Below, piece after piece: positions 1-9,175 of a stretch of 12,963 nucleotides of DNA (the first letter of the stretch is position 1; each line of letters begins with the position of its first letter). The notes beneath the pieces were generated by a model. It had not been told where the DNA came from, did no database searches, and saw only the letters and a list, made by a program, of their open reading frames with translations. The DNA lies in the NCBI GenBank assembly GCA_021802595.1, contig JAJZRT010000036.1:1-12963 (forward strand), given 5' to 3'. Position numbers and translations under genes: made by a program. Source of the stretch: Pseudomonadota bacterium (GTDB lineage Bacteria > Pseudomonadota > Gammaproteobacteria > Burkholderiales > Thiobacillaceae).

Positions 1-13
1 GATTCCGCTCATG

Positions 14-75
14 GTTCGACAGGCTCACCACGAACGGAATCAACAAGTTGCCGTTCGTCCTGAGCTTGTCGAAGG
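14..75. repeat. Dispersed inverted-repeat element upstream of mutY
   Basis: Two arms, 14-37 and 51-75, are near-perfect reverse complements (about 20 of 24 positions pair) separated by a 13-nt loop. The right arm carries the core TCCTGAGCTTGTCGAAGGA at 58-76. A related core occurs in the opposite orientation at 9189-9208. Read as protein, this kind of element yields peptides such as VRQAHHERN and PELVEG, which recur in spurious N-terminal extensions in many proteobacterial annotations. The fold and the second copy are seen directly; membership of a genome-wide REP/MITE-like family is inferred. Confidence 0.75.
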
Positions 76-100
76 ACTTGTTCAGCGCTTCCCTAAAGGG

Positions 101-109
101 TGCTACCCT
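101..109 (+). promoter_or_regulatory. Possible extended -10 element for mutY
   Basis: TGCTACCCT fits an extended -10 (TGn plus TACCCT) and ends 6 nt before the GTG start of mutY. No convincing -35 is present; TTGTTC at 78-83 is too far away (20-nt spacing). If used, transcription would start at or next to the start codon, giving a leaderless message. No Shine-Dalgarno sequence precedes the GTG, which agrees with that. This is pattern matching only. Confidence 0.3.
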
Positions 110-115
110 GCCGGG

Positions 116-1150
116 GTGAGTTCGTTTGCTTCCCGTATCGTCAGCTGGCAACAGCGCCACGGCCGCCACACCCTGCCGTGGCAGGCCACGCGCGATCCCT
201 ATCGCATCTGGCTGTCGGAAATCATGCTGCAGCAGACCCAGGTCGCCACGGTCGTTCCCTATTTCGAGCGCTTTGTCGCACGCTTCCCCGATCTGCCTGG
301 CCTGGCCGCCGCCGCCGAGGACGATGTGCTCGCCTTGTGGAGCGGACTCGGCTACTACAGCCGTGCGCGCAATCTCCATGCTGCCGCGCGTGCCGTCATG
401 ACCCGGCATGGCGGAACATTCCCGGCACAGCCGGACGTCATCGCCCAATTGCCGGGCGTGGGACGCTCGACCGCCGCAGCCATCGCAGCGCTGGCGTTCG
501 GCCGGACGTGTGCCATTCTCGATGGCAACGTCAAGCGCGTCCTGGCGCGCCATGGCGGAATAGCCGGCTGGCCTGGCGAGAAGAAAACCGAAACCGCACT
601 GTGGGCGCTGGCCGAGTCACAGCTGCCCCGTACCGGCATCGAGGCCTATACCCAGGGCATGATGGATCTCGGCGCACTCGTCTGCACCCGCAGCCAGCCC
701 GACTGCGCGGCCTGTCCGGTCAATACCGACTGCATCGCCTGCAAGCAGGGCCGCGTCAACGAATTGCCGACACCACGCCCCAAAAAAGCGCTGCCTGAAA
801 AGCAGGTGCAGATGCTGCTGCTGCTCGATCGCGGCGAACTGATGCTGGAGAAGCGCCCGTCGCGGGGCATCTGGGGCGGTCTGTGGAGCCTGCCCGAACT
901 GGCCCCCGACGCGGACGCCGCCGGCCACTGCCGCGACCGCTTCGGTCTCATCGCGCTGACCCAGCAGGCGTTGCCGCACCTCACCCACAGCTTCACCCAT
1001 TTCAGGCTGCATATCCGGCCTGTGGAACTCCGTCTCTCACCGCGCCACAGCACGTCGCCCGGCCAGATCTGGATGCCTCTGGCCGATGCGCTGGGTGCGC
1101 CCCTGCCCGCCCCCGTGCGCACGCTCGTCAAACGGCTTGACAGCCGATGA
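116..1150 (+). CDS. mutY: A/G-specific adenine DNA glycosylase MutY
   Basis: Removes adenine mispaired with 8-oxoguanine or guanine in base-excision repair. The 344-residue product matches the family length (about 350). The N-terminal motif SEIMLQQTQV holds catalytic Glu35. The helix-hairpin-helix LPGVGRSTAAAI is followed by ILDGNVKRVLAR with catalytic Asp136. The iron-sulfur cluster loop is Cys190-x6-Cys197-x2-Cys200-x5-Cys206. The C-terminal third is the NUDIX-like 8-oxoG recognition domain (EKRPSRGIWGGLWSLPEL, then LTHSFTHFRLHI). I chose GTG 116 because family homology begins at SSFASRIVSWQQRHGRHTLPW. The in-frame ATG at 11 would translate the repeat element into a meaningless N-terminus. 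It stands alone here: the next gene starts 76 nt downstream with its own promoter-like motif. Confidence 0.96.
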   Translation: MSSFASRIVSWQQRHGRHTLPWQATRDPYRIWLSEIMLQQTQVATVVPYFERFVARFPDLPGLAAAAEDDVLALWSGLGYYSRARNLHAAARAVMTRHGGTFPAQPDVIAQLPGVGRSTAAAIAALAFGRTCAILDGNVKRVLARHGGIAGWPGEKKTETALWALAESQLPRTGIEAYTQGMMDLGALVCTRSQPDCAACPVNTDCIACKQGRVNELPTPRPKKALPEKQVQMLLLLDRGELMLEKRPSRGIWGGLWSLPELAPDADAAGHCRDRFGLIALTQQALPHLTHSFTHFRLHIRPVELRLSPRHSTSPGQIWMPLADALGAPLPAPVRTLVKRLDSR

Positions 1151-1176
1151 GTCGCCCGGCTGCTGCCGCGCGGGAA

Positions 1177-1198
1177 TTGCCGTGCTATAAAACGGCAA
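1177..1198 (+). promoter_or_regulatory. Extended -10 promoter inside a perfect inverted repeat
   Basis: TTGCCGT (1177-1183) and ACGGCAA (1192-1198) are perfect 7-bp reverse complements flanking an 8-nt loop. The loop contains TATAAA (1186-1191), preceded by TGC to give an extended -10. No T-run follows, so it is not a standard mutY terminator. The arrangement suits a promoter for the downstream three-gene operon whose -10 is framed by an operator-like dyad. The -35 is poor, as is usual with extended -10 promoters. Confidence 0.45.
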
Positions 1199-1225
1199 CC
1201 CGATGAAACAACCTCCCTACGCCCA

Positions 1226-1651
1226 GTGGCACATGCGCATTTCCTCATCCGGCGGCTGATCCTGCTGGTCCTGCTGGTCAGCCCGCTTGCCGCCTCCGCC
1301 GGCGTCATCGTCAACACCGACGTCGAAGGCCACAGCATCAGCGTCGCCACCCTGCGCAACATTTACACCCTGCGCCAGACGATGTGGCCCAACCACCAGC
1401 CCATCGTGGTTTTCGTCCTGCCGGACGACCACCCGGTTCATGTGGCGTTCGCCAAGGAAAAGCTCGGGCTCTATCCCTATCGTCTGCGGCAGACGTGGGA
1501 CCGGATGAGTTTCAGCGGCATGGCCAGTGCGCCGATCCAGGTCAGGGACGAGAACGAAATGCGGGCACGCGTGCGTGCCACACCGGGAGCGATTGGCTAC
1601 ACAAGCAAGGACATAGTCTATGACGGCATCAAGACGCTCAGGCTGGAATAG
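1226..1651 (+). CDS. Small secreted PstS-like substrate-binding protein
   Basis: A 141-residue protein with a clear Sec signal peptide (RR, then a leucine-rich core, cleavage after ASA at residue 25), so it is periplasmic. The mature ~116 residues resemble one lobe of phosphate-type ABC substrate-binding proteins: LRNIYTLRQTMWPNHQPI, then a W-x-x-x-x-F-S-G segment, then PGAIGYTSK near the end. PstS proteins are normally 320-350 residues, so this is a half-size member. No permease or ATPase gene lies nearby, so a sensing or periplasmic carrier role with the downstream genes is more likely than ABC import. The only in-frame start is GTG 1226, and it has no clear Shine-Dalgarno. ATG 1203 and ATG 1233 share a frame that stops quickly. 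Its 3' end overlaps the porin gene by 32 nt. The ligand is unknown; phosphate or another oxyanion is a guess from the family. Confidence 0.8.
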   Translation: MAHAHFLIRRLILLVLLVSPLAASAGVIVNTDVEGHSISVATLRNIYTLRQTMWPNHQPIVVFVLPDDHPVHVAFAKEKLGLYPYRLRQTWDRMSFSGMASAPIQVRDENEMRARVRATPGAIGYTSKDIVYDGIKTLRLE

Positions 1652-2816
1652 CCTGCTGGTGGTTGCTCTGCTGGCGGCGTCGCCCGCCTGGGCGGACGAA
1701 CTGGCCGGTCCCCGCTACCAAATCCAGGGGTTCGCGGCACAAAGCCTGATCAGCAGCACCAACAACCATTTCTTCGGCGACAGTCAGGATGGGGTCAGCA
1801 CCGGGTTCACCGAAGCCGGTCTCCATGGAACCTGGCAGGTGCTCGATGCCGTGCGGCTGTCAGGCCAGGTGCTGTATCGGCGTGCAGGAGAAAGCGACAA
1901 GGACGGCCTGCGCGTGGACTATGCCCAGGCTGACTGGCAGTTTTATCAAACCGAAGTCAGCCAGCTCGGACTCAAGTTCGGCAAGGTCAAGCTCCCCTAC
2001 GGTCTGTATAACGAAACACGCGACGTGCCTTTTACCCGTCCCGGCATCCTGCTACCGCAGTCGGTCTATTTCGACAACAGTCGCAGCCTGCTTCTCGCAG
2101 CACCTGGCATATTCGTGCATGGGGCCAGTGTGCAAACGTACGGTGCGGCAGATTTTTCGCTGGGCTGGGTACGCCCGGATTTCAACAGCGAATCGGTGGA
2201 ATACAACTTTCTTGGCATCGATCGGCCCGGCAAGCTGGAAGGCAGGGAGAGCTTCATCACCCGCCTGCGCTGGGACACTCCGACCGACACTACGCTGATG
2301 CTGACCTACGCCGACCTGAGGGCCAACTACGCACCGGGCACCTCCGATCTGCTGGCGGCTGGCGGCTTGCGGTACCGCAATCTGCTGGCAACGGCCCAGC
2401 AGCGACTCGATACTGTGACGCTCACCGCCGAATACAGCGAGCCCAGTGTTGACTATCGCGGTTTCGGCCCGCGCCTGCCCGACGCCCATGGAGTTATTCA
2501 GGCTTATTACCTACAAGGCGAGTGGCGGTTTCACCCTGCGTGGGAGCTGATGCTGCGGCACGATGTGCTCTATCGCAGAAAGAATGACAAATCCGGTCGC
2601 CAGTTTCAGGCCGCCACGGGCCTGCCCGCACACACCGAATTCGCCCGCGACTGGACCCTGGGCCTGCGCTGGGATGCAACCCCCCGCCTCATGCTGCGGG
2701 CGGAATATCACCATGTCGACGGGACCGGCTGGCTGCCCGGTCCCGACAACCCGGATTATTTTAGCCGGGAACAGCGCTGGAACATGTGGCTCCTGCAGGC
2801 AGCCTACCGGTTCTAG
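1620..2816 (+). CDS. Outer-membrane beta-barrel porin-like protein
   Basis: 398 residues with a signal peptide cleaved near AWA (residue 25), then alternating aromatic/hydrophobic strands typical of a barrel: QVLYRRAGES, DYAQADWQFYQTEVSQLGLKFG, KLPYGLYNETRDVPFTRPGI, and many strands ending in aromatic residues. It ends in LLQAAYRF, the C-terminal phenylalanine signature recognised by the BAM machinery. The FGKVKLPYGLYNETRD segment with following loops resembles porins and porin-like proteins encoded beside sensor genes, but I cannot place it in a named specificity class. ATG 1620 is preceded by AAGGA at 1607-1611 with 8-nt spacing. It overlaps the binding-protein gene by 32 nt and ends 4 nt before the GGDEF/EAL gene, so the three should be co-transcribed. 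Probable role: letting the solute sensed by the operon into the periplasm. Confidence 0.85.
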   Translation: MTASRRSGWNSLLVVALLAASPAWADELAGPRYQIQGFAAQSLISSTNNHFFGDSQDGVSTGFTEAGLHGTWQVLDAVRLSGQVLYRRAGESDKDGLRVDYAQADWQFYQTEVSQLGLKFGKVKLPYGLYNETRDVPFTRPGILLPQSVYFDNSRSLLLAAPGIFVHGASVQTYGAADFSLGWVRPDFNSESVEYNFLGIDRPGKLEGRESFITRLRWDTPTDTTLMLTYADLRANYAPGTSDLLAAGGLRYRNLLATAQQRLDTVTLTAEYSEPSVDYRGFGPRLPDAHGVIQAYYLQGEWRFHPAWELMLRHDVLYRRKNDKSGRQFQAATGLPAHTEFARDWTLGLRWDATPRLMLRAEYHHVDGTGWLPGPDNPDYFSREQRWNMWLLQAAYRF

Positions 2817-2820
2817 CGCG

Positions 2821-5565
2821 ATGCGCCCGCCCGCATTTCTCAGCCTGAAATGGAAGCTGCTGTTGCCGCTCACGCTGGGCATGGCGGCCGGCACGGTGGC
2901 GCTCACCTGGATCAACGACGCCAACCTGCGGCGCGAAGTGCAGCAGGCGCGGCTCGAGAGTGCGACGCACAACGAGGCGCTGCTGCGCTTCCTGATTCAG
3001 CAGAACGAACGGCAGTTGGTGGACGCCGGGGCAGCGCTGGCCGACTTCCTGGTGGCCGACCATGGCGGACCACCCGGTCTGGAATCCGGCTTCGCCCTGC
3101 AGCCTTACTGGGACCAGCTCAGCCTCAACCAGGGCTTTGAAAGCCTGCGCCTGTACGATGCCGGCCAGCGGCTGCTGACCGGTTTCGGCAGCACGCCCGC
3201 GCCCGATGCATTGATAACCGCCAGGCTCACGGAGGTGCTCGCGAGCGAACACCCCGCCAGCGGCCTGTACTGCGCCGAGCGCTGTCTGTTTTACGGCATG
3301 GCGCCGGTGCTGCGCCGGGGCCGTACCACCGGCGTGGTGGTCGTCTCGATGGATCTCTCCAGCCTGCTGAGCACGTTTGGCCGGAGCAGCGGATACGATC
3401 TGGCCATCGCCGCCGCCCGCCCGCAGAAGGTCCAGCTGATTGCCGCCACCACGCCGGATATCAAAACGATGGTGGACAAGGCGGATTTCGTCCCCTATCC
3501 GCAGCGCCCGCAAATCGAGTCCGCCCTGACCCGCAGCCGCGGCAAGGTATACGAATGGCAGAAACTGAAGCCGCTTGCGGCGGCACCCGAGACGCCGTAC
3601 TTCATCGCGCGCAAGGACGTCACCCATGCCGAACAGGCCATCGAAAAATCATTCCTGACCAACCTGGTGACCGGCCTGACGGTATTCATCCTGGCCGAGG
3701 GGGTGTTGCTGATTTCGCTCGCCTGGCTGATGCGGCGAATGAACCGGGTCAGCACCGGCCTGCCGCTGCTGGGCGAAGGTCGCTGGCGGGATGCGCGCCA
3801 GCATCTGCAGTTTCGCGACAAGGCCCCGCGCGACGAACTCTCCACCCTGGAAGACGCCGCGCTCACCCTCGCCAGCCAGCTCGAATCGCTCGACACGGCC
3901 GCGCGCAACCAGCAAAACGATCTCGCCAGGCTGGTCGACACCCTGTCGCACGAGCGCGATTTCATCTCGGGCCTGCTGGATACGGCGCAGGCGCTGATCC
4001 TGACGCAGGACCGGCAGGGTGTGATCCGCATGGCCAACCATTACGTGGAAACCCTGACCGGCCTGACGGAAAGCCAGTTGATCGGGCAGGATTATTTCCG
4101 GCAGATGATCGCGCCGCAGGAAAGCCGCGACTGGCGTTCGCGACTGCTCGTCCACTTCGTCAATAATCCCGCGCCGCTGCGATTCGAAGCGCTGCTCGCC
4201 ACCCCTGATGGCCTGCGCAACATCACCTGGGTCCATTCGCTGATCGGCCAGGCGGGCGATAGCGAACTGCTGATCCTGTCGGTGGGGCTGGACCTGACCG
4301 AACTCAAGAGCGCGCAGGCACGCGCCAGCTACCTGTCCGACTACGACACGCTGACCGGCCTCTACAATCGCCAGGGCTTCCAGCGGCGGCTGGCGCATAC
4401 GCTGACCGAACAAAAAGGCGGCGCGCTGCTGCTGATCGACCTCGACGACTTCAAGGCGATCAACGACCTGGCCGGCCACAGCGCCGGCGACGCGGTGATC
4501 CAGCGCACGGCCGACCGCCTGCGCGAACTCCAGCCGGCGCCCAAGCTGGCCGCCCGGCTGGGTGGCGATGAATTCGCCCTGTACCTCGAACCCTTGCCGG
4601 ATGCCCAGTTGCTGCAGACGGCGCGCTACCTGTGCAAGGGCGACCGCGACCAGCACATTGCCACCGCCTGCGTCGGCATCGCCATGGCCCAACCCGACTG
4701 CACCACGGAAAGCCTGCTGGGGCACGCCGACCTGGCGCTCTCCCATGCGCGCGCCAAAGGCCGCTCCAACTGGCATCTGTACAACCCGGCGGACGGCACC
4801 CGCGAGAGCCTGCTTGACCGCACCGCGCAACTCGCGCTGATCACCGACGCGCTGCACGACAACCGGCTGGCCCTGTTCCTGCAGCCCATCATGGCGATCC
4901 AGGCCGGCCGGGCCATGCACTACGAGGCCTTGCTGCGGGTGCGGACGCCGGACGACCAGATTCTGCCGCCCGCGCCGCTGATCGCCGCAGCCGAGGCCTC
5001 CGGGCTGATCCGGGAAATCGACCAGTGGGTGCTGGAACGTGCCATCGCGCTGATCGCCAGCCGGCCCGGCCTGCACCTCGCGGTCAACCTGTCCGCCCGC
5101 AGCCTGGACAATCCGGGACTGCCCGCCCTGCTGCAGGGCATGCTGGAGCAACAGGGCGTCCAGCCGCACCGGCTGACCCTGGAAATCACCGAAACGGCGA
5201 CGCTCAACCAGATGACCCATGCCGAAATCCTGCTCACCGGGATCCGTGCACTCGGCTGCAAGCTGGCGCTGGACGATTTCGGCGTCGGTTTCTCCACGTT
5301 CCAGTATCTGAAACACCTGCCCGTCGACTTCGTCAAGATCGACGGTTCGTTCATCCGCACGCTGGATCACAGCGAAGATGACCGCCTGTTCGTCAGGGCG
5401 CTGGTCGAGGCGATCCACGGCTACGGCAAGCTGGCGATCGCGGAATACGTCGAGACCGCCGCCATTCTCCAGTGGGTGACGGAACTGGGCGTGGATTATG
5501 CCCAGGGCTACCACTTCGGCCGGCCGCAGCCGGCGGAATCCGTGTTCCCGCCCACGCCTGGCTGA
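2821..5565 (+). CDS. Membrane sensor with Cache-like, PAS, GGDEF and EAL domains
   Basis: A 914-residue cyclic-di-GMP turnover protein. Order: transmembrane helix at about 11-30; a periplasmic sensor of about 240 residues, probably a double-Cache type; second helix at about 281-304; a linker/HAMP-like helical region; PAS at about 383-495 (ALILTQDRQGVIRMANHYVE); GGDEF at about 505-660; EAL at about 672-910. The cyclase side has DLDDFKAIND and intact GGDEF at 581-585, but the RxxD inhibitory site five residues upstream is missing (PAPK instead). The EAL side has EALLR at 702-706, VNLSARS, LEITET, DDFGVGFS, VKIDGSFI and YAQGYHFG, so phosphodiesterase activity looks possible. Start ATG 2821 is chosen because the first transmembrane segment follows directly and the porin gene stops 4 nt upstream; the frame is open further upstream but only inside the porin gene. 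The Shine-Dalgarno is weak, suggesting translational coupling. Net synthase or hydrolase activity cannot be told from sequence. Confidence 0.93.
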   Translation: MRPPAFLSLKWKLLLPLTLGMAAGTVALTWINDANLRREVQQARLESATHNEALLRFLIQQNERQLVDAGAALADFLVADHGGPPGLESGFALQPYWDQLSLNQGFESLRLYDAGQRLLTGFGSTPAPDALITARLTEVLASEHPASGLYCAERCLFYGMAPVLRRGRTTGVVVVSMDLSSLLSTFGRSSGYDLAIAAARPQKVQLIAATTPDIKTMVDKADFVPYPQRPQIESALTRSRGKVYEWQKLKPLAAAPETPYFIARKDVTHAEQAIEKSFLTNLVTGLTVFILAEGVLLISLAWLMRRMNRVSTGLPLLGEGRWRDARQHLQFRDKAPRDELSTLEDAALTLASQLESLDTAARNQQNDLARLVDTLSHERDFISGLLDTAQALILTQDRQGVIRMANHYVETLTGLTESQLIGQDYFRQMIAPQESRDWRSRLLVHFVNNPAPLRFEALLATPDGLRNITWVHSLIGQAGDSELLILSVGLDLTELKSAQARASYLSDYDTLTGLYNRQGFQRRLAHTLTEQKGGALLLIDLDDFKAINDLAGHSAGDAVIQRTADRLRELQPAPKLAARLGGDEFALYLEPLPDAQLLQTARYLCKGDRDQHIATACVGIAMAQPDCTTESLLGHADLALSHARAKGRSNWHLYNPADGTRESLLDRTAQLALITDALHDNRLALFLQPIMAIQAGRAMHYEALLRVRTPDDQILPPAPLIAAAEASGLIREIDQWVLERAIALIASRPGLHLAVNLSARSLDNPGLPALLQGMLEQQGVQPHRLTLEITETATLNQMTHAEILLTGIRALGCKLALDDFGVGFSTFQYLKHLPVDFVKIDGSFIRTLDHSEDDRLFVRALVEAIHGYGKLAIAEYVETAAILQWVTELGVDYAQGYHFGRPQPAESVFPPTPG

Positions 5566-5577
5566 TTGCGGACGGGG

Positions 5578-5586
5578 TGCTATACC
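5578..5586 (+). promoter_or_regulatory. Possible extended -10 for the DsrC-like gene
   Basis: TGCTATACC at 5578-5586 resembles an extended -10. The nearby TTGCGG (5566-5571) is only 9 nt away, so it does not serve as the -35. A Shine-Dalgarno AGGAG at 5609-5613 sits 6 nt before ATG 5620. Together these suggest the DsrC-like gene has its own promoter rather than depending only on read-through from the GGDEF/EAL gene. Confidence 0.35.
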
Positions 5587-5619
5587 TAATGTCACACCGC
5601 AACCATACAGGAGCCTGCC

Positions 5620-5943
5620 ATGAACATGCGGATCCATTCCCCAGGCACCGCCGTCTTCGACCTCGACGGTTTCCTGATCAACCCTGCCATATGGAGCGAA
5701 GGCCTCGCCGACCGCATCGCCCAGAATGACGGCATCGGCCCGCTCAGCGAGGCGCAATACGAGCTGCTGCACGCATTGAGGGACGCCTTTTCCAGGCACC
5801 GGAACGTCACCGCACTCAGCCATGTCTGCCACCTCGTCGGGCAAAGCGCCGACTGCATGCAGCACCTGTTCCCCAGCCCGCGCGAGGCCTGGCGTGTGGC
5901 GGGGCTGCCCAATCCCGGCGAGGAAGCCAAAGCCTATCTTTGA
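5620..5943 (+). CDS. DsrC/TusE-family protein lacking C-terminal redox cysteines
   Basis: 107 residues, the normal DsrC/TusE size. Landmarks in order: FDLDGFLINPAIWSEGLADRIA, then DGIGPLSEAQYELLHALRDAF, then HLFPSPREAWRVAGLPNPG. These match the family pattern of D-x-D-G-F-L, W, GI-x-L, the LFP motif and the AGLP tail. In canonical DsrC the C-terminal arm carries one cysteine in the helix before AGLP and another as the penultimate residue; TusE keeps only the last. Here the first position is Trp91 and the tail ends EEAKAYL, so both are absent. The only cysteines are Cys70 and Cys79, elsewhere in the fold. It therefore probably cannot carry persulfide or trisulfide in the usual way; a regulatory or binding role is inferred. 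ATG 5620 has an AGGAG Shine-Dalgarno. No dsr or tus genes are in the window. Confidence 0.85.
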   Translation: MNMRIHSPGTAVFDLDGFLINPAIWSEGLADRIAQNDGIGPLSEAQYELLHALRDAFSRHRNVTALSHVCHLVGQSADCMQHLFPSPREAWRVAGLPNPGEEAKAYL

Positions 5944-5964
5944 GGCCGCTGCCCGGCGCGGCCT
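5943..5964 (+). terminator. GC hairpin after the DsrC-like gene, weak terminator candidate
   Basis: AGGCCGC at 5943-5949 pairs perfectly with GCGGCCT at 5958-5964 around an 8-nt loop, directly after the stop codon. Only TT followed by CCCC comes next, so it lacks the U-tract of a standard intrinsic terminator. It may still pause polymerase or protect the 3' end. The rest of the 137-nt gap up to ilvE shows only the ilvE promoter-like motif. Confidence 0.35.
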
Positions 5965-6040
5965 TCCCCATTGCATGGCCTGCGGGCTGACAGCCCCCAT
6001 CGCGCCCTCAAGCGGGTGCTTCGCCCTGCCCGGAATCCGG

Positions 6041-6070
6041 TAAGATTGACGTTTTCCATCCGTTAAAGAG
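6041..6070 (+). promoter_or_regulatory. ilvE -10 element and ribosome binding site
   Basis: TAAGAT at 6041-6046 is a reasonable -10, with no clear -35 at the expected distance. AAAGAG at 6065-6070 is a purine-rich Shine-Dalgarno about 10 nt before ATG 6081, supporting that start over the ATG at 6087. Confidence 0.4.
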
Positions 6071-6080
6071 ATTCTTCACC

Positions 6081-7004
6081 ATGTCCATGGCCGACCGCGA
6101 CGGCGTCATCTGGTACGACGGCAAGCTCGTCCCCTGGCGCGACGCCACCACCCACGTCCTCACCCACACCCTGCACTACGGCATGGGCGTCTTCGAGGGC
6201 GTGCGCGCCTACAAGGCTGAACAGGGCACGGCGATCTTCCGCCTGCAGGAACACACCGACCGCCTGTTCCGTTCCGCCCACATCCTCGGCATGAAAATGC
6301 CGTTCGACAAGGCGACGCTTTCCGAAGCGCAGCGCACCGTGGTGCGCGAGAACAAGCTCGAATCCGGCTACCTGCGCCCGATGGCCTTCTTCGGCTCGGA
6401 AGCGATGGGCATCTCGGCCAAGAACCTGTCGGTGCACGTCATCGTCGCCGCCTGGCCGTGGGGCGCCTATCTCGGCGCCGAAGCGCTGGAAAACGGCATC
6501 CGCGTGAAGACCAGCTCGTTCTCGCGCCACCACGTCAACATCACCATGTGCAAGGCCAAGGCCAACGGCAACTACATGAACTCCATCCTCGCGCACAAGG
6601 AAGCCGAGATGGACGGCTACGACGAGGCGCTCTTGCTCGACGTCGACGGCTTCGTCGCCGAAGGCTCCGGGGAAAACGTCTTCATCATCCGCAACGGCAA
6701 GCTCTACACGCCGGATTTGACCAGTGCGCTGGAAGGCATCACCCGCGACACCATCGTGCAGCTGGCTGCCGAAATCGGCCTGCCGGTAATCGAAAAACGC
6801 ATCACCCGCGACGAGGTGTATTCGGCCGACGAAGCCTTCTTCACCGGCACTGCCGCCGAGGTCACGCCGATCCGCGAACTCGACAACCGGGCCATCGGCG
6901 AAGGCACGCGCGGCCCCATCACCGCCAGGCTGCAGGCGATGTATTTCGACTGCGTGCACGGCCGTGCCGATGCCCACACCGACTGGCTCACCCCGGTCAA
7001 ATGA
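6081..7004 (+). CDS. ilvE: Branched-chain amino acid aminotransferase IlvE
   Basis: PLP fold-type IV transaminase catalysing the last step of leucine, isoleucine and valine synthesis (2-oxo acid plus glutamate) in the cytoplasm. 307 residues, the family length. Hallmarks: HTLHYGMGVFEGVRAYK near the N-terminus, then SSFSRHHVNITMCKAKANGNYMNS with the PLP-binding Lys160, then DEALLLDVDGFVAEGSGENVFI and GITRDTIVQLA, then the C-terminal EAFFTGTAAEVTPIRELDNR. The length and lysine position match Escherichia coli IlvE, and the GVFEGVRAY form is typical of the larger BCAT subgroup rather than D-amino acid transaminase or ADC lyase. The stop codon is 11 nt before the zinc-finger gene, so the two form an operon. 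Confidence 0.95.
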   Translation: MSMADRDGVIWYDGKLVPWRDATTHVLTHTLHYGMGVFEGVRAYKAEQGTAIFRLQEHTDRLFRSAHILGMKMPFDKATLSEAQRTVVRENKLESGYLRPMAFFGSEAMGISAKNLSVHVIVAAWPWGAYLGAEALENGIRVKTSSFSRHHVNITMCKAKANGNYMNSILAHKEAEMDGYDEALLLDVDGFVAEGSGENVFIIRNGKLYTPDLTSALEGITRDTIVQLAAEIGLPVIEKRITRDEVYSADEAFFTGTAAEVTPIRELDNRAIGEGTRGPITARLQAMYFDCVHGRADAHTDWLTPVK

Positions 7005-7015
7005 GAGCGCCCGGC

Positions 7016-7234
7016 ATGAGCGAACAGCACGGCGACGCCAAGCGCGACAACACCCAGCGCGTCATCGAGGTCACCGAGAGCGATCTTCCCCTGCACTGCC
7101 CGATGCCGCAGCAGACCGACTGGAACGCCCACCCGCGCGTCTACCTGCCCATCGAGGCGCGCGGCGATGCGCTCTGTCCGTATTGCGGCACGCTCTATCG
7201 CCTGAAGGGCAAGCCCAGCGGCGGCCATCACTAG
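7016..7234 (+). CDS. CHCC zinc-finger domain protein
   Basis: A 72-residue protein with the zf-CHCC pattern: Cys28, His39 in the segment AHPRVYLPIE, then Cys54 and Cys57 in LCPYCGTLYRL. The HPRVYL...CPYCG signature is shared with the mitochondrial complex I subunit NDUFS6 family. Small proteins of this kind are often encoded directly after ilvE in Betaproteobacteria; their molecular role is not established. ATG 7016 is chosen over the in-frame ATG 7001 because GAGAG at 7003-7007 provides a ribosome binding site 8 nt upstream, while ATG 7001 overlaps the ilvE stop (ATGA). Either is possible. Expected to bind one zinc ion and be cytoplasmic. Confidence 0.88.
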   Translation: MSEQHGDAKRDNTQRVIEVTESDLPLHCPMPQQTDWNAHPRVYLPIEARGDALCPYCGTLYRLKGKPSGGHH

Positions 7235-7324
7235 CGCCTACGCCCGACTGGGAAGCGACAGGCCTGTAGCGCCCGCGGATTGCCGGCCCGTAACAATGCT
7301 GGTTGTCGCACGTATTCGAAAATC

Positions 7325-7756
7325 ATGTCCCAATCCGCCTTTCCCACCCCCGAAGCGGCCGAGGCCGCGTTCTACGCGGCCTTCGAGGCGCGCTCGCTCG
7401 ACGCCATGATGGCGGTCTGGGCCGGCGACGATCGCATCGCCTGCATCCATCCGCTGGCCGCGCCGCTGAACGGCCGCGCCGCCGTCGCGGCCGGATGGCG
7501 CAGCCTGTTCGAGGCCGCCGGGAAGTTCCGCGTCCAGGCCGCGCTCGCGCCCGAACTACGCGAGACCGGCCAGGTCATCCGCATCGTGCGCGAGTACCTG
7601 GTCATCGGCCAGGAAACCGAACCGCGCCCGCCGATCCTCGCGACCAACGTGTACCGCAAGGACGCCGGCGGCTGGCGCATGGTGCTGCACCACGCCTCGC
7701 CGCTTCAGGTCGGCGGTACCCCGCCCGCGCGCACCCCGCCGGCCGTGCTGCATTGA
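7325..7756 (+). CDS. NTF2/SnoaL-like superfamily protein
   Basis: 143 residues. The plan fits the NTF2-like alpha+beta cone fold: an N-terminal helix pair (AAEAAFYAAFEARSLDAMMAVWAGDD), then IACIHPLAAPLNGRAAVAAGWRSLF, then beta strands ending VYRKDAGGWRMVLHHASP. The W...D..I.CIHP...L.G...V..GW pattern is that of small bacterial proteins described as nuclear transport factor 2 family or DUF4440-like, with no defined substrate. The family homology ends at HHASP. The last ~17 residues (GTPPARTPPAVLH) look like an unstructured tail and lie in the region overlapping the convergent mpaB-like gene. The 90-nt gap before it has no clear ribosome binding site; TAACAA at 7291-7296 is a weak -10 candidate. 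Confidence 0.8.
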   Translation: MSQSAFPTPEAAEAAFYAAFEARSLDAMMAVWAGDDRIACIHPLAAPLNGRAAVAAGWRSLFEAAGKFRVQAALAPELRETGQVIRIVREYLVIGQETEPRPPILATNVYRKDAGGWRMVLHHASPLQVGGTPPARTPPAVLH

Positions 7757-8610
7757 CCGCTCTCCGGCTGCGGCCCTGCGCCGGCCATCCGCGGGCAGCC
7801 TTGCATCGGACCCGCATTCGTCCCCAGCGCTTCGATTTCATACCCTGCCGGATAACTCGGGTGCGGCTGCCGGGTGCGCAAGCGCGGGGTACGCCGCCGC
7901 GGCAGGATCCGGAGCAGCCGCGCCCGGGTGCGCAGCACCGCAGGCGCCAGCCAGCGGATCGGCCGTGCCGGTTGGGGAAAGCCGAATGCTTCGCGCAAGG
8001 AATCGTCCAGCAAGGCGTGGATATTCAGCCGCACCAGCGGACGCAGCGGCGCGGGAAACCAGGAGGCGAACAGTTCGCGGGTGGCGCGCGCCACCCCCTG
8101 GCTGGCGCGGCCCGCCTGAAAATACTGCGCTTCGTAAGCGCGGCTGAAGGCCTGAAACGATTCCCGGTCGGCCGGTAGTCCGCTCATGTCCATTCGCCGC
8201 CCCACCTCGCGCCAGAAGCAGAACCAGGCTTCCGCCTCCTCCGCGCCCAGGCTGCGCCAGCCGAATCGGTCTATCCAGTGGATGGGCTCGAACACGAAAG
8301 TCGACAGCACATACAGAAAATCCTCGTTGCGAATGGCGAAGCGGGCGTGGATCGCATTCATCCGCGCGATGGCGCGTTGCCCGCGTTCCGATTCGAAGCC
8401 GTTTTCAATGATTTCGGAAACGATGAGATCGGTATCGTCATAGCGCTTCTGCGGGCGCGCCTCGAACTCCCCCGTGGCATGCAGCAGACCGCCGATGCGC
8501 GGGCTGGCGAAGGTGCGGAACAGCGCCAGTTCCAGCGAGCGCGTCACATCCCAGGGGAAGTCGTAGCACGCGATCCGGCGCACCACCTGCTGAATGTGCC
8601 GGGCGTTCAT
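7705..8610 (-). CDS. MpaB/DUF2236 haem oxygenase-like protein
   Basis: 301 residues of the oxygenase MpaB family (DUF2236, related to the rubber oxygenase catalytic domain). Landmarks: IACYDFPWDVTRSLELALFRTFA near the start; RPQKRYDDTDLIVSEIIENG with Arg56 and Thr60; MNAIHARFAIRNEDFLYVLSTF with His88, the likely haem ligand by analogy with latex-clearing protein; then FGWRSLGAEEAEAWFCFWREVGRRM and LFASWFPAPLRPLVR. The substrate is unknown. The family core ends near YPAGYEIEALG; a low-complexity tail of about 45 residues follows and overlaps the convergent NTF2-like gene by 52 bp. ATG 8610 is the only start after an in-frame stop and has no Shine-Dalgarno, but overlaps (ATGA) the stop of a 20-codon ORF with a strong one. 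It is probably the last gene of the haemoglobin-SRPBCC operon. Confidence 0.85.
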   Translation of the reverse strand: MNARHIQQVVRRIACYDFPWDVTRSLELALFRTFASPRIGGLLHATGEFEARPQKRYDDTDLIVSEIIENGFESERGQRAIARMNAIHARFAIRNEDFLYVLSTFVFEPIHWIDRFGWRSLGAEEAEAWFCFWREVGRRMDMSGLPADRESFQAFSRAYEAQYFQAGRASQGVARATRELFASWFPAPLRPLVRLNIHALLDDSLREAFGFPQPARPIRWLAPAVLRTRARLLRILPRRRTPRLRTRQPHPSYPAGYEIEALGTNAGPMQGCPRMAGAGPQPESGQCSTAGGVRAGGVPPT

Positions 8611-8669
8611 GCCGCCAACGCCGCGCTCGTATGCGAGAAATACGCTTTCACGTGCATGTCGATACTCAT
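8607..8669 (-). CDS. Possible 20-codon translational coupling ORF
   Basis: An open frame of 20 codons (MSIDMHVKAYFSHTSAALAA) whose ATG overlaps the SRPBCC stop and whose stop overlaps the mpaB-like start, both as ATGA. AAAGGAG at 8677-8683 gives it the best ribosome binding site of this operon, 7 nt upstream. It may carry ribosomes into mpaB by stop-start coupling. Alternatively it is the real N-terminus of the MpaB-like protein separated by a frameshift, since related proteins extend somewhat further at that end. The peptide itself resembles nothing I know. Confidence 0.4.
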   Translation of the reverse strand: MSIDMHVKAYFSHTSAALAA

Positions 8670-9157
8670 GCTTCCACTCCTTTCAGACTTCGATAATCGA
8701 TCAGCTCCACTCCCAGCCGCCTGGCCATGCCGGCCGCGCCGTCCTGCATCACCGCATGGTGATTCCAGGCGAACAGCGGCGCCAGCAACGGCACCAGCCA
8801 CCGCATCCAGGCCTTGTGCGGAAATACCTGCCAGGTATAGCGCACCCGCGTGCCGGCAGGAATGGCCACCAGCTCCCAACGGCCCATTCCCACCAGGTCG
8901 CCCGCCGCTTCCACCACCAGCAGGTGCGGTTTCTCCGCTGCGCGCGTGGTGAAGTCGATGACGAAGCCATAGGGCAGGCGGCTCGTCCACCAGGTGCGGC
9001 GGACCGCACCCTCGTCGTCGCGCCCGCCAGCCACCAGCGTCTGCACGCGGCGGATTTCCGGCCACCACTGCGGCCAGGCCTCGGGGGTGTCCAGTACCGC
9101 CCACACCGCCTCGGGCGGCACGGCCAGATGCCACTCGCTGACCAGATGGAAATCCAT
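8666..9157 (-). CDS. SRPBCC (START/polyketide cyclase-like) protein
   Basis: 163 residues with the Bet v 1/SRPBCC pattern: an opening beta strand FHLVSEWHLAVPPEAVWAVL, the PEAWPQWWPEI segment, strands through GFVIDFTTRAAEKPHLLVVEAAGDLVGMGRWEL, RVRYTWQVFPH, and a long C-terminal helix AWNHHAVMQDGAAGMARRLG. The family forms a hydrophobic ligand pocket; the ligand here is unknown. I start at ATG 9157 because GAGATAAAGG lies just upstream and homology begins there. An ATG at 9175 would add six residues but directly abuts the repeat element and lacks a ribosome binding site. It lies between the haemoglobin and the MpaB-like gene on the same strand, joined to the latter through a tiny coupling ORF. 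Confidence 0.82.
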   Translation of the reverse strand: MDFHLVSEWHLAVPPEAVWAVLDTPEAWPQWWPEIRRVQTLVAGGRDDEGAVRRTWWTSRLPYGFVIDFTTRAAEKPHLLVVEAAGDLVGMGRWELVAIPAGTRVRYTWQVFPHKAWMRWLVPLLAPLFAWNHHAVMQDGAAGMARRLGVELIDYRSLKGVEA

Positions 9158-9175
9158 GGCCTTTATCTCAACCAT

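Follow-up and report, generated by a model that had tools for sequence, protein, structure and literature searches.

Three adjacent genes in a 12,963-nucleotide (nt) stretch of contig JAJZRT010000036.1 (GenBank assembly GCA_021802595.1; Pseudomonadota, Thiobacillaceae), here called the window, encode half of a periplasmic binding protein (PBP), referred to as half-PBP, a porin-like outer-membrane β-barrel and an inner-membrane sensor with both GGDEF and EAL domains. The three genes occur in conserved order across bacteria that are only distantly related and probably work together as one envelope sensing device. Our more specific proposal, which we regard as evenly poised between right and wrong, is that the trio represents a conserved three-part envelope signaling operon controlling cyclic di-GMP (c-di-GMP), with half-PBP acting as the relay. 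A single functional unit in which half-PBP and barrel form the input is supported by the conserved gene order, the gene overlaps and the joint duplication of the half-PBP and barrel genes. A preliminary description of this locus had put forward a tightly packed three-gene set at positions 1226-5565, and this was borne out by coordinates and Pfam matches: the first two genes overlap by 32 nt and the sensor gene likely starts at the ATG at 2821, 4 nt past the barrel stop codon. That description had also made its case depend on a conserved gene order, and the order recurs in Thiobacillus relatives, in Halomonas and in sampled genomes of the phylum.

Distribution and conservation of the trio

A tblastn search against plasmid records returned a single match, a 1.8-Mb Halomonas replicon carrying the trio in identical order, with 43 % (half-PBP), 34 % (barrel) and 34 % (sensor) identity to the window proteins. 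Recurrence of the gene order at 34-43 % identity indicates that the arrangement is more than chance. Scanning of genome contigs yielded 21 loci. The titles of 17 name Thiobacillus, Thiobacillaceae or Hydrogenophilales, and 20 of the 21 keep the trio order, with the barrel and all or part of the sensor; locus L016 stops at the contig edge just past the half-PBP gene and contig ends cut the sensor in L015 and L019. Further, 52 of 398 sampled genomes of the phylum gave a match at E ≤ 1e-8. Of the 81 match places, 79 lie within 77 fetched regions, the others being a second half-PBP of Thiobacillus thioparus (L056) and the known T. thioparus locus (L005/L025).

Within the phylum sample, 25 regions from 24 genomes (L057-L081), containing 26 half-PBP rows, make up the trio group. 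A barrel gene adjoins half-PBP in 26/26 rows and a GGDEF+EAL sensor comes next in 24 of them (23 genomes; two of the 24 sensors read as two open reading frames (ORFs)). In L066, one of the two rows lacking GGDEF+EAL, the third gene (4739-6571) encodes dCache_3 together with an HD-GYP-type HD domain, which argues that c-di-GMP turnover is kept despite the change of domain. This replacement in one member also hints that the sensor might have a net phosphodiesterase (PDE) role. In L067 (6812-10307), a single sensor gene is preceded by two tandem copies of the half-PBP/barrel pair; the first copy, which is the other row without a GGDEF+EAL sensor next to it, lies in front of a complete trio. When longest-start ORFs are used, half-PBP and barrel genes overlap by 32 nt in 12/48 trio rows, including the window, and by 4 nt in 7/48; the gene overlaps suggest that the trio is co-transcribed.

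Two side observations concern individual sensors. The third gene of L066 gives a CHASE8 match barely over the cut-off (28.0 versus 27 bits); CHASE8 is the sensor domain of YfiN. The sensor gene is split into two ORFs in L005 (T. thioparus, 8064 onward) and L065, by sequencing error or decay.

Protein components of the trio

The half-PBP ORF encodes 141 amino acids (aa) with a signal-peptide-like N-terminus. It scores 24.3 bits against PF12849 (PBP_like_2), under the 27-bit cut-off, and covers only positions 95-186 of the 267 in the profile; many close homologues are labeled PF12849 in precomputed annotation, and the named close matches are from Thiobacillus, so that the window resembles a Thiobacillus-type genome. 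Fold matches of the predicted structure identify half-PBP as one lobe of PstS. It thus shares a one-lobe fold with PstS but, at 141 aa including the signal peptide, lacks the second of the two ligand-enclosing lobes. In a profile alignment to 4ecf, made without residue-level superposition, the RAQGSGT segment lies opposite a half-PBP sequence of the LPDDNPVH type. The residues of the PstS phosphate loop are Arg and Ser-Gly-Thr. In half-PBP this loop appears to be replaced by an LPDDxPVH-type sequence without them, and H72, close to the loop, is nearly invariant across trio-group half-PBPs. The preliminary description had called the protein a solute binder and had suggested oxyanions as ligands to try; a single PstS lobe whose loop is apparently without Arg and Ser-Gly-Thr does not support this as worded. 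Its remark that no ABC permease accompanies the binder gene held for the nine window proteins scanned with Pfam (bases 1-9175), none of which is a permease, another difference from PstS within that scope. An R-x3-S-G-(T/M) sequence at residues 93-99 was considered as the PstS phosphate motif and rejected, because in the profile alignment the PstS loop falls near residues 65-72 and much of the trio group has Lys, Gln or another residue in place of R93. The fold matches listed for the half-PBP model do not include YfiR, which does not exclude similarity, and no NCBIfam model matches the window half-PBP or barrel at E ≤ 0.01.

The window barrel matches PF07396 (Porin_O_P) with 20.9 bits, exactly the cut-off, over 43 residues. 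A C-terminal F, W or Y is found in 47/48 trio-group barrels, the window barrel among them, and K124, R134 and R140 are kept in 28/28 trio barrels, with R155 kept in at least 90 %. The barrel is likely located in the outer membrane, where it may act as a channel. Of the outer-membrane channel described earlier, the β-barrel stands, if weakly recognized, while channel function is a prediction.

The Cache/PAS sensor with GGDEF and EAL domains assigned in the preliminary description was confirmed by Pfam, with dCache_3 (PF14827) at 35.0 bits (cut-off 25.7), GGDEF at 106, EAL at 236 and PAS also above cut-off. A model of residues 1-345 adopts a Cache fold (pLDDT 83.2), and its fold matches are mostly Cache domains of chemoreceptors and kinases. 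The window sensor has intact GGDEF, EALLR, DDFG, KID and AEYVE motifs, and a motif check found no RxxD inhibitory site; it is predicted to be a bifunctional GGDEF/EAL enzyme. The GGDEF motif, the first Glu of the EAL motif and DDFG are each kept in 41/41 aligned trio sensors.

C151, C155 and P162 in the periplasmic part are identical in the same 41 sensors, and the Cys pair is also found in six split or cut sensors, giving 47/47; this total comprises 21 from the window and close relatives in the Thiobacillus group and 26 from outside that group. In the model, C151 and C155 flank a β-hairpin turn, making a C151-C155 disulfide plausible. The C-x3-C motif is absent from 23 non-trio dCache_3 control domains, which were taken not at random but from the 30 loci scoring highest in a family search (six without ORF and one trio sensor were removed). 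A profile-based Cys control matched only 3/30 control loci, and these included one trio sensor. For pairs not both of the Thiobacillus group, the periplasmic sensor domain changes fastest with a mean identity of 18 %, compared with 37 % for half-PBP, 37 % for GGDEF-EAL and 31 % for the barrel. A c-type heme Cache domain was considered and rejected, as this requires CXXCH (PMC12889525) and the window sensor reads CAERC. The preliminary description had noted neither the invariant Cys-x3-Cys nor the swapping of outputs among wider-family members.

A possible shared input module of half-PBP and barrel

Half-PBPs outside the trio group (L082-L133, 52 rows counted) were analyzed as a wider group. 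A barrel gene adjoins half-PBP in 50/52 rows, mostly upstream, L104 and L115 having no labeled barrel. It should be noted that the wider-family porin labels are partly circular, since the seeds were picked as half-PBP neighbors; independent Pfam support among the 50 sequences comes from Porin_4 (14), OMP_b-brl (5) and Porin_O_P (1), and three of the 50 scanned sequences are false fusion ORFs. A transducer is encoded at most two genes away on the same strand in 35/52 rows, namely a histidine kinase (12), a methyl-accepting chemotaxis protein (12), a GGDEF protein (7), a GGDEF+EAL protein (3) or a SpoIIE protein (1). L103, which contains both GGDEF and chemotaxis protein genes, was tallied once, as GGDEF. 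Each transducer label beyond GGDEF/EAL derives from between one and three seed sequences, so that some transducers may be missed, and representatives were checked with Pfam. The counts leave out L056, and also L132, which the gene caller lost. Apparent porin/half-PBP fusions, three long ORFs of one genome (L111, L125), were rejected, as a separate porin ORF, read out of frame, accounts for their N-terminal portion; a signal-peptide-like stretch precedes half-PBP, so these rows represent ordinary neighbors.

A tree of 102 half-PBPs places 49 trio rows on one side of a single branch (support 100/98), and output type changes 17 times along the tree compared with 47.9 in shuffles. The alignment has few columns and 24/99 inner forks are open. 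Output labels were set by hand as GGDEF+EAL for L005, L057 and L065 (split sensors) and for L015, L016 and L019 (cut by contig ends, L016 without visible sensor), and as HD-GYP for L066. More surprising than the trio itself is that outputs appear to be exchanged behind one common type of half-PBP/barrel pair. We tentatively suggest, while leaning towards doubt, that an outer-membrane barrel and a stand-alone PBP half-lobe are the shared input module of widespread, undescribed trans-envelope receptors, plugged into GGDEF-EAL, HD-GYP, diguanylate cyclase (DGC), chemoreceptor, hybrid kinase and SpoIIE phosphatase outputs. Cells would then read events at the outer membrane itself, for example the state of the barrel or whether the porin is occupied, and not periplasmic solutes only. 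If chemoreceptors, kinases and c-di-GMP enzymes do share this input, it would be a candidate input for many orphan receptors, and half-PBPs annotated as 'ABC-type phosphate transport system substrate-binding protein' would probably be misnamed.

Proposed control of c-di-GMP and comparison with known systems

In the proposed mechanism, the barrel would reside in the outer membrane, half-PBP in the periplasm and the dCache_3 protein across the inner membrane. Half-PBP would dock on the barrel, or on something admitted by it, and free half-PBP would be read by the dCache module of the sensor, shifting the balance between c-di-GMP synthesis by GGDEF and breakdown by EAL. We infer the contacts of half-PBP, its ligand and the direction of the signal. 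Such logic would combine that of YfiBNR with that of NspS-MbaA, using different protein families, and the trio is thus of a known kind, control of c-di-GMP by a solute-binding protein (SBP) or by a YfiR-type protein, with different parts. To our knowledge, most GGDEF/EAL sensors have no known signal; the conserved trio names likely periplasmic and outer-membrane partners of this sensor and makes its input testable.

In YfiBNR, YfiB is an outer-membrane lipoprotein with an OmpA-like domain and YfiN the cyclase, which is repressed by the small periplasmic protein until the latter is sequestered at the outer membrane. YfiR belongs to DUF4154, and the trio has instead a PF12849-like lobe, a barrel and a dCache_3-PAS-GGDEF-EAL protein. 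At E ≤ 0.01, the three window proteins match none of the YfiBNR Pfam families. In other respects YfiBNR (TpbB) of Pseudomonas aeruginosa resembles the trio: it consists of an outer-membrane protein, a small periplasmic protein with a PBP-lobe fold and an inner-membrane c-di-GMP enzyme, with YfiR resembling the N-terminal lobe of a type I ligand-binding protein and able to pass a signal from the outer-membrane protein to the enzyme (PMC4655355).

NspS is a full two-lobe PBP, and here the trio differs, having half a PBP only. LuxP-LuxQ likewise relies on a full PBP, with a kinase as output, and is not known to include a barrel. As in the trio, the binding-protein gene of Vibrio cholerae NspS-MbaA lies directly upstream of the gene for the inner-membrane GGDEF-/EAL-type sensor that reads it; NspS binds polyamines, and the available text mentions no porin gene (PMC8079147). 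More generally, SBPs are described as stimulating DGC/PDE receptors (PMC9602780; PMC8079147). PdeB of Shewanella is comparable to the trio sensor in its build of periplasmic domain, HAMP, PAS, GGDEF and EAL; its periplasmic signal is given as unknown (PMC9061725). No neighborhood supporting an identity of the trio sensor with PdeB was found. Six trio loci adjoin kbl- and tdh-like genes (L071, L072 and L074, named by eye; L075, L077 and L081, judged by gene sizes), a neighborhood other than that of pdeB. Among the literature matches listed, with subscription papers largely outside their scope, no title or abstract describes a system of this composition, in agreement with the earlier statement that none is well characterized.

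Several observations weigh against half-PBP relaying an outer-membrane signal to the sensor. The test by residual distance correlations, calculated after removal of the GGDEF-EAL signal and without a random-gene control, is weak, although it lends some slight support to contact: 0.46 between half-PBP and periplasmic domain, 0.32 between half-PBP and barrel and 0.31 between barrel and periplasmic domain. A conserved neighborhood indicates functional linkage and not a complex, and the contacts and ligand of half-PBP are putative. Within the wider group, no transducer was found within two same-strand genes in 17/52 rows, and the second half-PBP of T. thioparus (L056, 6010-6591) is divergent, sits on a long branch and has no labeled barrel or same-strand transducer. 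Porin_O_P matches few trio barrels (5/28 at E ≤ 0.01) and sequence search gave no credible solved relative of the trio barrel. Finally, 5/41 sensors have D or S in place of the final Glu of the AExVE motif in their EAL domain.

The order channel, receptor, sensor proposed by the preliminary description survives as one of several wirings, and a YfiBNR-like adaptor or repressor wiring fits equally well or better. Its most direct form, in which the porin admits a small anion, half-PBP binds it and loaded half-PBP activates the dCache sensor by the logic of NspS-MbaA or LuxP-LuxQ, is unlikely in our estimation. The PstS-lobe fold, the established stimulation of GGDEF/EAL receptors by SBPs cited above and the conserved basic residues of the barrel (K124, R134, R140 and R155), compatible with an anion path, all suit it, but one lobe of two leaves no clam-shell site in a single chain, the phosphate loop is apparently replaced and the nearly invariant H72 of the trio group lies near the replaced loop. 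The same pair could serve nutrient uptake, with the sensor merely co-regulated, as might be expected from the wider-family rows without nearby transducer, 15 of 17 of which keep the barrel. This is decidedly improbable given that no ABC permease was found in the nine window proteins scanned and that the sensor or its HD-GYP equivalent is present in every trio-group unit with enough contig.

The Cys pair of the sensor might instead point to redox or envelope stress, sensed by the dCache domain through a disulfide or metal, with half-PBP and barrel as folding or quality-control partners. Invariance of C151 and C155 in 47/47 sensors though the domain averages 18 % identity, their position at the hairpin turn in the model and the absence of C-x3-C from the 23 best-scoring other dCache_3 domains speak for such a sensor, to which we nevertheless assign little likelihood, as a disulfide across a hairpin may have no more than a structural role.

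Locus organization and neighboring genes

The features of the locus are collected in Table 1. A longer mechanical ORF at the sensor gene spans 2563-5565, and a simple promoter scan found 0 candidates compared with 0.5 expected.

Table 1 Features of the three-gene locus in window coordinates
Feature	Position	Strand	Remarks
Half-size PstS-like periplasmic protein gene, one PstS lobe (half-PBP)	1226..1651	+	GTG start; signal peptide and ~115-aa domain
Outer-membrane β-barrel (porin-like) gene	1620..2816	+	398 aa; C-terminal Phe (...YRF)
Inner-membrane sensor gene	2821..5565	+	914 aa; transmembrane segment, periplasmic dCache_3, transmembrane segment, PAS, GGDEF, EAL
32-nt overlap of half-PBP and porin genes	1620..1651	+	Porin ATG within the end of the half-PBP gene
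Cys151-x3-Cys155 codons of the sensor	3271..3285	+	Periplasmic β-hairpin

The gene next to the L056 half-PBP encodes an AMP-binding enzyme. Opposite the window sensor gene, a minus-strand open frame of 783 aa (3649-6000) is probably a G+C-rich shadow frame. Downstream of the trio, Pfam identifies a DsrC-family protein of 107 aa (5620-5943) with the C-terminal end ...AGLPNPGEEAKAYL, apparently without the C-terminal Cys expected of DsrC/TusE. A MutY-like gene with HhH-GPD and NUDIX_4 domains (Pfam) is located upstream of the trio at 11-1150.

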